Position numbers and translations under genes: made by a program
Part shown: piece after piece, positions 3,051 through 7,245 of the stretch
Layout of the letters: each line of letters opens with the position of its first letter
Numbering within the stretch: the stretch's first letter is position 1
Notes under the pieces: model-generated
Seen by the model: only the letters and a program-made list of their open reading frames with translations
The model's database searches: none
Told to the model about the DNA's origin: nothing
Assembly (NCBI GenBank): GCA_022578605.1
Contig: MU394193.1
Location: forward strand, 1-18,061
Direction: 5' to 3'
Length of the DNA stretch: 18,061 bases
Source of the DNA: Camillea tinctor
Taxonomy: Eukaryota; Ascomycota; Sordariomycetes; Xylariales; Xylariaceae

Positions 3051-3524
3051 AGTTGAGGATTCTATAGTTACCTAATATTAGTACCGAACGTAGTGGTTAG
3101 TAACAGAGGTTTTCGCTGTGCTTCTCAGAACCGGACACTCTAAATGAAAGTTGATGATAGTTGTAGCCAGTGAAAGGAAACCAAGGTCTGCGAGATCCAA
3201 GTACATACTCCGCATCCAATATCCTCCCAGCTATATAAGTGGGTAGGTAGGTAAAGGCTATTATCTCGGAGATCCCAACAACAGCTAGGCTTCATATACC
3301 GTGTTTGGACTAGTAATTCCTCAACACACGCATATCACATATCCACTGATAAGGGGTAATATAAATGAAGACCAGCACCGTTTCGAATCACGTGATCGAG
3401 CATTTGATGTTGAAGTTGGAGATAAGAAGAACTACTTAGTTCATGCAGGTACGTGATCACATCACATGTTACCCGTACGAGCAACATCTAAGCATAGAAG
3501 GAAATACCAAGTATTTTGTGTATC
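3051..3524 (+). promoter_or_regulatory. 3' UTR of esterase and putative promoter of nucleoside hydrolase
   Basis: There is no gene here. Candidate elements are two GATAAG sites at 3348-3353 and 3421-3426, both fitting the HGATAR consensus of fungal GATA factors such as AreA. A CACGTG E-box lies at 3389-3394 inside the palindrome ATCACGTGAT. The 8-mer ACGTGATC is repeated at 3390 and 3451. A TATAAAT lies at 3360-3366, about 160 nt upstream of the ATG. GATA control would fit a nucleoside-scavenging enzyme under nitrogen regulation, but this is inferred from short motifs only. Confidence 0.4.
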
Positions 3525-4708
3525 ATGCAGTGGTCTTTGATCGTTATTTTTCTTCTCGGTGCACTCGGCGTATTGAGCGCAGCCCCCAAAAAATTAATCA
3601 TTGACACAGATTTGTTCAGTGACGTTGAGTAAGTTTTTGGTTGATCGAATTGTTTTCCCCCGCTTGCTTGGTGCTGATCGTCTGCAGCGACACAGGCGCA
3701 CTCCTCCTGGCCCTTACCCATAGAGATGCCGATATCCTAGGCGTAAACATTAACTACCCGTCTATGTATACTGGCCTAGCAGCGTCGAGCCTGCTTGGAT
3801 ATTACAATCACTCCCACGTTCCGTTAGGCCTCAAGCGGCCTTTCTCCAATGTCACATATTTTGATGACTATACTTACGAGAACGGCGAGTATGCCAGTAA
3901 GGTTGCTTACCACTGGCAGGATGACGCATCTCTCCCATGGGCAGACGCCAGTTCGACCTGGGATACTGTTGAACTGTATAGGAAGCTCTTGTCAGAGCAA
4001 GACGACCAAAGCGTGACGATAGTCAGCATTGGGTTTCTTGATAATGTAATTGCTGCTAAGAATCGTTGCCACTATCGGTAGAATGCTTACACACTCTGGA
4101 TGCTATAGCTTTCGCGCCTTCTTTCATCCACAAATGACACGTACTCATCTTTTCCAGGGACCGACTTAGTGACAGCCAAGGTAAAAGAGCTTATTGTCAT
4201 GGGCGGTTCATACCCCTCTGGACGCGAATTCAACTTCTTCGGCTATAATTCCACTGCTACAGCTCACGTAGTTAATAACTGGCCTACGCCAGTGACCTTT
4301 TCCGGGTCCGAGCTGGGGAACTATGTTTTTTCCGGAGCAAGATTAAGCCTAGAGGCTCCTGAAAATGATCCCGTACGGGGAGCCTATATATGGTACAAGT
4401 ACGTACTACTCTTTCCAGGTGTACATGATGACGAAAACTTCTAACAAAAGCGCAGTGGGTACAATAAATCCAGAAACTCCTGGGATCCACTGACGATGCT
4501 GTATGCGATTGAAGGCTTGGGAAGAGTGTTTCGGTTCGGAAATTTTGGAGGACATAATTATGTTTACCCTGACGGCCAAAATGAATGGAGGTCGGAGAGT
4601 AATGGACGTGAACAGCATTACCTAGAGCTAGTTGTCTCTAATCAGACAGCTGGTTCTGTTTTGGACCATATGTTCATCCAAGGAGCCAAAAGGGCCGCAC
4701 ACCATTAG
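3525..4708 (+). CDS. secreted inosine-uridine preferring nucleoside hydrolase
   Basis: This enzyme is predicted to cleave the N-glycosidic bond of nucleosides to base plus ribose, outside the cell or in the secretory pathway. Exons are 3525-3628, 3688-4045, 4109-4398 and 4456-4708, giving 334 residues. A signal peptide covers residues 1-19 or 20. The calcium/ribose-binding N-terminal motif reads IIDTDLFSDVDD (25-36) once intron 1 is removed. Further marks are ELIVMGGSYPSGREFNFFG from residue 181 and SWDPLTMLYAIEG from 259, with Asp261 the likely metal-binding aspartate. Intron 2 (4046-4108) is placed by homology: the join GFLDN-LSRLLSSTNDTYSSF restores the family pattern, whereas reading through meets a stop at 4079. 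Intron 4399-4455 has a GTACGT donor and TTCTAAC branch. All catalytic landmarks appear present, and no break remains after splicing. It lies 475 nt downstream of the esterase stop, probably with its own promoter. Confidence 0.92.
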
Positions 4709-5566
4709 ACAGAACCCGAACAAGGCAAATTCCATCCATAATACCCTACAGGGAGAGATCAATACTAATCGCAGCAAAACTATATGGTCTTGACCTCTGA
4801 CCAGGAATAGATTAGAGGTCTCTGTTTTTTTCTTACCATTCTTGGTGACCTATCCCGCCAATGTAGTTGGATTAGGTCTAAACAAGACAGTATGACAGCC
4901 ATGTCAGGTGTTTGCCCGTAGTTGAGAATGGAGATATCTAGGCCTACATCACTCACAAGGGTTCGTGAAAAAATACATCGACGCCAAATCCGACAACCGT
5001 CTCGAACTCAAGTGCGTCTATTCCCTAGCTCTAACTAGAGAGACTGAATTTTGTCAGCTTTGAAATTTACTAGAATATAAGATTCTTATTCATCCTTAGG
5101 CAAAGGTGATTTAATCTATGCTTAAACTGCCTGGCTAGGTATGCCATTTAGAACTCGACAGGATGATACTAAACGATTAATCAATTCTTATTATGTCCAG
5201 GGGTTGGTCTTCACACCAACCTCATAGTTTGTCCCTTAAACTCGACGAGACCGTATTACAAGTGCTAGTGTCATTTTCATTTCTAACTGCGTCTATAAAA
5301 TACCGGTATGCGATGTTGTTTTAAAATACGTTAATGTTGTTACAATTTCGATAACTACTTAAGTAGCGGGGTTTATGCATATTAAAGTGGTAACATTATT
5401 TATAATTTTAAATACCTATAAAGCAAATAAATTAAATGTTATAATTTAATAATAACTTTAAAAAAAATTGGCTTTTAAATTAGTATAATAATATATAAGT
5501 CCAGCGGGTAAAATTTTAATTGTTTTAGTTTATATACTTAGTTAACTTATCTTATTTTAATTGGGG
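4709..5566. other. intergenic, becoming AT-rich after about 5300
   Basis: No gene is recognised. The first 600 nt have ordinary composition. From about 5300 the sequence turns strongly AT-rich, and it stays so around the tRNA gene to about 5930. A small inverted repeat, GACCTCT...AGAGGTC, lies near 4792-4822 and may simply mark a transcript end of the nucleoside hydrolase gene. Confidence 0.5.
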
Positions 5567-5575
5567 AAAAAAAAA
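5567..5575 (-). terminator. Pol III terminator (T9)
   Basis: Nine consecutive T residues on the minus strand begin two nucleotides after the discriminator base of the tRNA-Leu gene. This is the expected strong RNA polymerase III terminator, and it supports the gene being a live transcription unit. Confidence 0.85.
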
Positions 5576-5576
5576 C

Positions 5577-5710
5577 TACCAGCTGCGGGATTCGAACCCG
5601 CGCATCAAGATGATAATAGAACTTAAGTCTATCGCCTAGATGTTTGTTAGTACTAGACGCAACAAAGTTCTGATAATCAAAACGTACCTTAACCACTCGG
5701 CCAAGCTGGC
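5577..5710 (-). tRNA. tRNA-Leu (anticodon UAA) interrupted in the D-arm
   Basis: The gene encodes a class II leucine tRNA for UUA codons. Exons are 5710-5688 (23 nt) and 5635-5577 (59 nt), joining to an 82-nt tRNA. The acceptor stem GCCAGCT/AGCTGGT has seven pairs, with discriminator A at 5577. The D-stem GCC/GGC forms only after the insert is removed. The anticodon stem ATAGA/TCTAT carries the loop CTTAAGT with T33 and anticodon TAA. The variable arm forms ATCA/TGAT, and the T-arm is GCGGG-TTCGAAT-CCCGC. The A box (GGCCGAGTGG, near 5692-5703) and B box (GGTTCGAATCC, 5588-5598) are intact. The usual intron site (37/38) is uninterrupted; instead 52 nt lie after nucleotide 23. Every stem is fully paired although the flanks are very AT-rich, which argues against a decaying pseudogene. 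Confidence 0.92.
5636..5687 (-). other. spliceosomal-type intron (52 nt) inside the tRNA-Leu D-stem
   Basis: On the minus strand the insert begins GTACGT (5687-5682), carries a perfect TACTAAC (5652-5646, branch A at 5647) and ends in TCTAG (5640-5636), with the branch A 11 nt before the last base. The length matches the short introns of the protein genes here (50-73 nt). The GTACGT donor is identical to those of the nucleoside hydrolase intron at 4399 and the DUF1996 intron at 12167. Exact GT-AG removal restores the D-stem. I see no bulge-helix-bulge pairing at the junctions, and 52 nt is far too short for a group I or II intron. That it is really spliced is inference. Confidence 0.8.
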
Positions 5711-5734
5711 ATGCAAAAATTTTCCCTCGCGATG

Positions 5735-5741
5735 ATTTATA
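5735..5741 (-). promoter_or_regulatory. TATA-like element upstream of tRNA-Leu
   Basis: TATAAAT on the minus strand lies 25-31 nt upstream of the tRNA 5' end. That is where a TATA element helps place TFIIIB at many fungal tRNA genes. The region is AT-rich, so chance occurrence is possible. Confidence 0.45.
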
Positions 5742-6427
5742 TCCTACATAAAGGTAAGTCACTTTTAATATTTAACAACTTTTCATGATCATAATAATTC
5801 TAATAATATATATATTTATATATTTTAACCACGGTTTTTTTTATATTGGCTTAATAAAGATTAATATCACTTTAAATGCTTTAAACATAACGGAACCTAC
5901 TTTGAGTTTTTACGTGACCTAGGTTAAACACGTTTAAAAGGAAAAGAGAGCCCACTTCCCCACCTTATACCATAGTAGCATATGCTATCATATTTACACA
6001 TAAGAGCTTCTGCGCTGTGGACTAAAGCATAACTACCTAACACAGTTAATAGAGACGTAGTGGGAAAATTCATAATCAGAAGCCATCATTTGTTGGGAAT
6101 TTTGGCTTGCATGAGTGAGATGTGTAGGACTAAAGAGGTAGAGGTACATAGGTCGCTAGTGAATAAATTAATAAATGATTCCCGTGAGTATGTGCTGGGT
6201 CAGCAAGTATTGTAGTTCTAGAGAATCATTCGACAGCAAATACGTTTTCCCACTATGTGGGGTGTCGCGATAGTTTTTGGGTTTGAAATCCCTTGCTTTC
6301 CACATCGTCAATCTCTGCAGAATAATATCAATAAATGTTTTTTAATAACTGCGCGTTTATTATATTTGAGTAACGAAATAAATAGTATCTAGCTATATGA
6401 TGGAGGTGATATTATTACAGCTAGCTG
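5742..6427. other. intergenic, AT-rich to about 5930
   Basis: I see no gene here. The first 190 nt continue the AT-rich pocket around the tRNA gene. From about 5930 composition returns to that of ordinary intergenic DNA. The right end is the 3' flank of the minus-strand wall-protein gene. Confidence 0.5.
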
Positions 6428-7245
6428 CTATTGAGCAACATATAAGGCACCGATGGCAAGAGCTCCGTAAAATGCTACGGAGCTCACCGACATGACATTA
6501 GCAGCGGCAGTGACGACTACAGTTCCAGAAGCCTGAGTAATATTAGCCAAAGCTATCTTGATTCAAGGAGATGAACACTCACGGTGGTAGATGAGCTGGT
6601 TCCATTCGCGCCTCCGGTAGGAGTAGGAGTAAGGGTTGCCGAACTAGTGATGGGGGCGCTCGTCAGAGAAGTCTCCGCAGTATTAGTCGAGGTAGATATT
6701 AAAGTTGATTCAGCTGTTCCTGTGGTCGCACTTGGGGATTCAACGGTGGTGGTTGCCGATTCTGCTATAGTAGAAGAAGCAACTGATGTAGTCGAGGAGG
6801 CTAGTTCATCGGAGGAGCTAGTAACAGACGACGTCCCGGCAGGGATAGCGGCGCCGACATCGGGCTGCTCTCCAGACAGCGGTTCGGTAGAGAGGCTACA
6901 TCTCTCACCGGTGCTGGACAATGTGTTGCCGTAGAAGCGCCAAATATTCTCATTATCGGGACCAGAGCACTGAAGACAGTTCTGGTAATCGGTTAGGAAG
7001 ATTTCGTCATTGCACACATCAGCACTCTCCCGTGCTTGAATAATGGCCTGGCCTAGCAGAAGTCAGTGCTCCAAGTCCCGGCAGGACGGATGGATACTCT
7101 TACCGCAGTTATCGTGACAATTGTAAGCTGGTGTTCCAGGTTCCTGACGTTTGAGCAGACGAGAGAAGAACTGGAATTCGTCTGTAGAGGCTGAGACTAC
7201 AGTAGTAGTAGCAACAAGACCAACAAGGCAAGACTTTAGATTCAT
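6428..7245 (-). CDS. secreted cysteine-rich, Ser/Thr-rich GPI-type cell wall protein
   Basis: The protein is a small fungal surface protein of unknown biochemical role. Exons on the minus strand are 7245-7104, 7052-6583 and 6532-6428. Introns are 7053-7103 (GTAAGA, CTGAC branch, TAG) and 6533-6582 (GTGAGT, GCTAAT, CAG). The product has 238 residues. In order it shows a signal peptide (1-20), a Lys-Arg Kex2-like site at 32-33, and a compact domain with six cysteines (43, 47, 61, 73, 76, 99) containing YNCHDNCG and NCLQCSGPDNENIWRFYG. A Ser/Thr-rich mucin-like stalk (about 100-204) and a hydrophobic tail (about 216-238) suited to GPI anchoring follow. Both intron placements are forced by frame and give uninterrupted protein. 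I recognise this architecture from other Pezizomycotina but know no assigned activity. A plus-strand open frame across the stalk is its shadow. Confidence 0.85.

Follow-up and report, generated by a model that had tools for sequence, protein, structure and literature searches.

A UUA-reading tRNA gene of Camillea tinctor is interrupted by an mRNA-like intron, which suggests that the spliceosome finishes this tRNA

Spliceosomal introns occur in ascomycete rRNA genes. Among small structured RNAs, U3 and U6 were, as of 2017, the only ones known to be often interrupted by introns, and U3 introns were present in the vast majority of the Pezizomycotina analysed (PMC5832005, excerpt). Most introns of eukaryotic tRNA genes lie at 37/38, and ectopic ones have been described in algae and nucleomorphs (PMC4090602 and PMC3978253, excerpts); D- and T-arm introns exist in the nucleomorphs of G. 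theta, where their removal has been seen by RT-PCR, and similar ones in C. merolae (PMC4090602, excerpt). tRNA splicing is held not to involve the spliceosome, a view repeated in the cited part of a review as recent as 2026 (PMC13149111). Among the titles and abstract openings listed for the open-licence literature, to which subscription papers do not belong, none describes spliceosomal introns within tRNA genes, and the excerpts of PMC11782384, PMC12730881, PMC6461891 and PMC4033280 held nothing further on this subject. The kind of intron described below is known, and the tRNA host class appears to be new.

In Camillea tinctor, a Xylariales ascomycete, we found that a tRNA gene reading UUA is interrupted by an intron that resembles those of mRNAs and not the usual tRNA type, and its sequence suggests that the spliceosome finishes this tRNA. 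The window, that is, the whole stretch of DNA analysed here, is all of contig C143 (18,061 bases) of the 44.7-Mb assembly, and cmscan with Rfam RF00005 matched a tRNA in it with extra bases in the D-arm (Table 1). The preliminary description had recognised a tRNA-Leu(UAA) gene at this place, correctly to the base, and its account of a D-stem insert after nucleotide 23, running from GTACGT through TACTAAC (branch A at 5647) to a final AG, agreed with our recomputed coordinates. It had also claimed that exact removal of GT...AG leaves a complete 82-nt tRNA with intact A and B boxes and a T9 run, and ARAGORN indeed returned a tRNA-Leu(TAA) with all stems, the long variable arm and A73, in whose drawing there is a G-U pair at 1-72 and a further one at the top of the anticodon stem. 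A complete cloverleaf, the UAA anticodon, the long variable arm, the A and B boxes and a terminator are all present, as expected of a nuclear tRNA-Leu(UAA) gene. ARAGORN reports no tRNA in the unspliced window and, with introns permitted, wrongly calls the unspliced gene Ile. Moving the joint by -2 to +1 nt leaves the product unchanged, and only one of these phases gives GT-AG. The intron contains a T4 run, which could be a weak stop for Pol III.

Table 1 Features of the interrupted tRNA-Leu(UAA) gene and of its contig, and five further interrupted tRNA genes of the same genome
Feature	Contig	Position	Strand	Remarks
Interrupted tRNA-Leu(UAA) gene, whole	C143	5577..5710	-	cmscan RF00005, 48.1 bits; ARAGORN on spliced form
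Exon 1, nt 1-23: acceptor 5' strand, D-arm to position 23	C143	5688..5710	-	
GT-AG insert, 52 nt, putative U2-type spliceosomal intron	C143	5636..5687	-	GTACGT donor, TACTAAC branch, TAG acceptor
Branch motif TACTAAC	C143	5646..5652	-	branch A at 5647
Exon 2: rest of D-stem, anticodon arm, long variable arm, T-arm, acceptor 3' strand, A73	C143	5577..5635	-	
Anticodon TAA, 7-nt loop, without 37/38 intron	C143	5623..5625	-	counted by hand from exon 2
A box TGGCCGAGTGG, uninterrupted	C143	5693..5703	-	
B box GGTTCGAATCC, uninterrupted	C143	5588..5598	-	
T9 run, Pol III terminator-like	C143	5567..5575	-	1 nt past A73
TATAAAT, possible Pol III upstream element	C143	5735..5741	-	~31 nt upstream of tRNA start
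mRNA intron 1, esterase gene, 67 nt, GTAAGC...ATTAAC...CAG	C143	963..1029	+	joined exons = P0001
mRNA intron 2, esterase gene, 72 nt, GTATGT...TAG	C143	1519..1590	+	joined exons = P0001
Lys(CUU)	C18	253181-253048	-	T-stem insert 61 nt
Lys(CUU)	C60	249350-249215	-	T-stem insert 63 nt
Lys(CUU)	C66	201673-201535	-	T-stem insert 66 nt; by hand from pattern match
Ala(CGC)	C7	470192-470341	+	D-loop insert 65 nt; by hand from pattern match
Ala(AGC)	C45	312699-312558	-	D-loop insert 57 nt; by hand from pattern match

The esterase gene beside the tRNA provides mRNA introns for comparison, as its three exons when joined equal the deposited C. tinctor protein P0001 exactly. The preliminary description had held the insert to be as long as the mRNA introns nearby; the two protein-proven introns are somewhat longer (67 and 72 vs 52 nt). 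It had also ascribed the GTACGT donor to two of the nearby introns. Over both strands, the window contains this hexamer 9 times against 4.8 expected, including possible donors at 3449 and 4399 on the plus strand. The tRNA lies within an AT-rich stretch, in which four 250-bp segments between 5250 and 5999 have 23-29% GC and the segment over the tRNA has 36%.

In a partial survey of the same genome, inserts outside 37/38 were found in five further tRNA genes, namely, three for Lys(CUU) and two for Ala. The inserts lie at 23/24 in the Leu gene, at 52/53 in the T-stem of the Lys genes, and in the D-loop of the Ala genes, and none is at 37/38 (numbering by hand); the joints read GCGG^GT...AG^GTTCGA in all three Lys genes and TTTAGTGGT^GTAAG...AG^ATAATA in both Ala genes. 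The Ala genes each have an additional 13-nt intron at 37/38, which is absent from the Leu gene and from the three interrupted Lys genes. Once spliced, each of the six gives a complete tRNA of the kind expected (by ARAGORN for the spliced Leu form), and A and B boxes are readable throughout, with the last G of the Lys intron completing GGTTCGACCCC. First exons are only 19-23 nt long in the Leu and Ala genes, in which T6-T9 runs follow the discriminator base after 1-5 nt; in the Lys genes, the T run comes after a trailer of about 40 nt or more. TATA[AT] stands upstream of two of the six genes, and the other four have no TATA-like box within 60 nt upstream.

Like the ascomycete rRNA introns, these inserts have GT-AG ends and lie in genes for structured RNAs that are, here presumably, transcribed by a polymerase other than Pol II; the host there is a Pol I rRNA and not a tRNA. 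Like the fungal U6 snRNA and U3 snoRNA genes (PMC5832005, excerpt), the six would be small structured non-mRNA genes with ordinary spliceosomal introns, but here the hosts are tRNA genes, of three isotypes and with three places of insertion in the tRNA body. Canonical 37/38 SEN introns likewise interrupt nuclear tRNA genes; the six inserts differ from them in place, in their GT, branch and AG signals, and mostly in length. The ectopic introns of C. merolae and the algal nucleomorphs are similar in being D- and T-arm inserts in eukaryotic tRNA genes; however, those of G. theta are 3-24 nt long (PMC4090602, excerpt), those of C. merolae are assigned to the endonuclease/bulge-helix-bulge (BHB) route, and the cited portions of these accounts mention neither GT-AG ends nor branch sites.

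All six inserts have GT...AG ends in the phase that restores the tRNA, and all six have YAG acceptors. The donors are GTACGT in Leu, GTAAGT in Lys-C18, GTGAGT in Lys-C60, GTTAGT in Lys-C66, GTAAGT in Ala-C7 and GTAAGC in Ala-C45; four of these fit the Aspergillus 5' splice site consensus GURWGY (PMC12403724) exactly, and those of Leu and Lys-C66 are one base off. In the same order, the branch motifs are ACTAAC, GTTAAC, CCTGAC, GCTAAC, ACTAAT and GCTGAC, with the branch A 12, 14, 16, 16, 13 and 15 nt from the intron end (the A itself counted), so that YTRAY is present in 6/6 and RYTRAY in 5/6, Lys-C60 lacking the leading purine. We defined the full signal, after the inserts had been seen, as GTNNG, YTRAY with its A 9-20 nt from the end, and YAG. 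With this post hoc definition, all six inserts carry it, and the chance per insert was 15-82 in 200,000 when segments were sampled from the parts of the genome examined, with four phases allowed (22 in 200,000 random segments for an insert of the Leu length). Folding of the inserts is no stronger than that of shuffles (z from -0.99 to 0.95). No splice signals were used in finding the other genes, as Lys-C18 and Lys-C60 were found by the tRNA model, Lys-C66 by an exon pattern and the Ala genes by B-box patterns. The Leu gene, by contrast, had been picked in the preliminary description for its signals, and the unbiased count is therefore 5/5.

Introns at 37/38, which served as a control, are frequent in this genome (55 of 79 classifier-accepted matches, with a few misreadings, e.g., L069). 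None of the 56 parsed 37/38 introns carries the full signal, of which only 30 are at least 19 nt long and able to hold it, and GT...AG appears in any of seven frames in just two. Because only these 30 are long enough and only six reach 45 nt, at least one of the latter being a false match (L069), the control is weaker than it looks. We accordingly dropped a probability of 1.6e-8 for 6/6 vs 0/56, as many 37/38 introns are too short for the signal; the same sum limited to those of at least 45 nt gives 0.001. With a classifier working on base pairing alone, a displaced anticodon arm was seen, among real tRNA genes, in the Leu gene and both Ala genes, and the interrupted Lys genes were missed because their T-arm is split. 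This classifier left nine matches unclassed (Leu, two Ala, three Trp, two tRNA-like repeats and one false match, L088), merged near-identical Lys copies, accepted the false match L069, perhaps misread L107, and passed over some ordinary tRNAs that ARAGORN finds (e.g., L002, L048 and L145). An Arg(CCG)-like gene (L169, C23:46103-46390) has a 37/38 intron of about 86 nt with an internal near-repeat.

The exons of the three interrupted Lys genes are 98.6-100% identical (at most 1 of 73 positions differs), and their intron interiors are 48-51% identical in gapped alignment. The three pair scores of these interiors were reached by 42, 9 and 187 of 500 shuffles; two pairs thus align better than most shuffles, and some common ancestry may show. 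When the 37/38 intron is left out, the two Ala genes have the same exon base at 67 of 72 positions, and their intron interiors agree at 44% (score reached by 227 of 500 shuffles). In all five of these copies, the signals are conserved and the interiors have diverged, and exons that are kept, interiors that drift and signals that stay are the pattern expected of spliceosomal introns under splicing selection. Insert-free relatives are also present. Four Lys paralogs (on C47, C1, C22 and C48) have no T-stem insert and the same exon sequence at the joint, together with an 8-nt 37/38 intron that the three interrupted copies lack; an intronless gene without the D-loop insert (L110, C48:182405-182476) has the same exon sequence at the joint as the split Ala genes. 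The anticodon loop of L110, TTGGCAT, reads Ala(GGC), and 68 and 66 of its 72 positions are shared with the two split Ala genes. An Ala(GGC) anticodon is unusual for a eukaryote.

We estimate a probability of about 0.85 that the insert between nucleotides 23 and 24 of this gene, a nuclear tRNA-Leu(UAA) gene of the Pol III type, is a U2-type spliceosomal intron. The points against this explanation are the post hoc definition of the signal, the branch of Lys-C60, the donors of Leu and Lys-C66, the T4 run, the short first exons, the scarcity of TATA-like boxes and the better-than-shuffle alignment of two pairs of Lys interiors. An unlikely alternative is that, as in red algae and nucleomorphs, the inserts are non-canonical introns and the tRNA splicing endonuclease removes them at bulge-helix-bulge-like sites. 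The D- and T-arm introns described there give it a precedent, and some inserts allow a relaxed BHB-like pairing, e.g., with a 4/4 central helix in Ala-C7. However, what the copies have in common is GT, branch and AG and not a pairing, and the BHB-like scores of the six inserts (5-7 of 10) are ordinary for random inserts at the same places (P of 0.48 for at least 6 and 0.175 for at least 7), although this crude score sets canonical introns apart only weakly, ten of them reaching just 5-9. The preference of the preliminary description for a spliceosome-type over an endonuclease-type intron is supported by GT, branch and YAG in 6/6 inserts, their absence as a full signal from the 56 introns at 37/38 (30 of them long enough to hold it), and insert-free paralogs with the same sequence at the joint.

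Still less probable, in our view, is that these are dead tRNA genes broken by intron-like insertions and either unexpressed or with a product that is discarded. In the cited part of a review, short insertions in the D- and T-arms of eukaryotic tRNA genes, mostly seen in a single member of a large synonymous set, are supposed to be a sign of pseudogenes (PMC4090602), and insert-free Lys(CUU) copies do exist; yet the exons are intact in all six genes, the Lys exons have stayed near-identical while their introns diverged and kept the signals, and no other Leu(UAA) copy was found in our partial searches in a genome that uses UUA. Splicing is usually coupled to Pol II, which would favour the idea that the tRNAs are parts of longer Pol II transcripts and are released from a host RNA with an ordinary mRNA-like intron, and the long Lys trailers would fit such transcripts. 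We consider this very improbable, because the Leu and Ala genes have their T runs close behind the discriminator base, the A and B boxes are kept, and 4638-6552 is not overlapped by any open frame of at least 90 aa.

If the insert is a spliceosomal intron, RNA polymerase III would make the interrupted precursor, the spliceosome would take out the insert as a lariat before the tRNA folds fully, and end processing and CCA addition would follow as usual. The two Ala precursors would pass through both machines, the spliceosome for the D-loop insert and the tRNA endonuclease for the 13-nt 37/38 intron. Decoding of UUA would depend on this splicing, since no other Leu(UAA) gene was found. We think it fairly probable, from the gene sequences, that part of the tRNA set is under spliceosome control in this fungus, comprising the sole Leu(UAA) gene, hence all UUA decoding, and two Ala genes that need both machines. 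If so, the spliceosome can process Pol III precursors that are about 134-150 nt long and have first exons of 19-52 nt, even the most conserved small RNAs are open to entry by spliceosomal introns, and the decoding of a codon can be coupled to the cell's splicing state. According to the cited part of its description, tRNAscan-SE 2.0 applies its analysis of non-canonical introns to candidates of the archaeal model (PMC8450103); if fungal genomes are not so screened, such tRNA genes may be overlooked in many fungi.

A second, uninterrupted tRNA-Leu(UAA) gene, which the preliminary description had named as evidence that would speak against it, did not turn up in our partial searches with a Leu(UAA)-directed pattern, two A-box patterns and BLAST with the spliced tRNA. 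The Leu(UAA)-directed pattern gave 40 places, of which 30 were examined with their flanks; the remaining 10 comprise the window gene itself, another match within the L038 gene and eight places whose matched sequence shows the tRNA-like repeat. The first A-box pattern gave 15 places, with the full Leu motif in three (on C5, C11 and C143). Among the 81 places of the second, 22 were examined, and these comprised 10 Leu genes and 12 sequences unlike tRNAs (L147-L158). BLAST with the spliced Leu tRNA found C143 only, and its reach was short, as the Leu(UAG) genes, which have about 20 nt in common with the query, were missed. One gene that seemed to be a second Leu(UAA) copy (L059, Leu(taa) by ARAGORN) was rejected because its anticodon loop reads UAG, and L062 (Leu(caa) by ARAGORN) is by its loop also a Leu(UAG) gene; the classifier agrees on both. 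The full set of 10 Leu genes found consists of four with AAG, two with CAG, two with UAG, one with CAA and one with UAA, and we know of no other anticodon in this set that reads UUA by the usual wobble rules. If the Leu(UAA) gene is the sole one, it must therefore work, as the codon is in use (one UUA in the esterase gene). A divergent Leu(UAA) copy, or one in unassembled DNA, is possible.

At least six tRNA genes are interrupted in this way, and six is a lower bound because the survey was partial and several isoacceptors (e.g., Asn, Cys, Phe and Thr) never surfaced. Counted by distinct context, the B-box survey covered about 68 of 92, 13 of 35, 10 of 96 and 4 of 27 places, and about 100 of the 358 matches of another pattern. 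A D-loop junction pattern gave 12 matches, of which four were examined, two being the Ala genes and two (L190 and L191) unlike tRNAs. At C2:278649-278938 (L160), a tRNA-like 3' half is preceded by a GTAAGC...AAG stretch, and its 5' half could not be placed; this is possibly another interrupted tRNA gene.

Some further features of the tRNA-like sequences in this genome were observed. Seven Lys(CUU) genes (L104, L105, L106, L121, L122, L168 and L176) share, by eye, a similar 3' trailer with two hairpins, the first of which (GCATCGGG...CCCGATGC or a variant of it) would be a competitor of the acceptor stem, and the second of which varies in sequence between copies and is seemingly paired in each. 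A family of tRNA-like repeats (L014-L037, GGCCACATGGCGCAGTGGTTAAGCGCC ... GGGTTCGAATCCCATTGTGGTCC, e.g., C21:3657, C42:70991 and C64:240924), often near contig ends, has a long hairpin in place of the anticodon arm, and a second family (L128, L130, L131 and L167) is related to it; these repeats are perhaps Pol III-promoted transposons. By hand count, AGGTTCGATTCCT makes up 49 of the 96 matches of one B-box pattern and is dispersed over many contigs, with several copies paired 217 or 229 bp apart (C4:698820/699049, C13:65559/65776, C18:83508/83737, C25:147032/147249 and C31:421796/422013).
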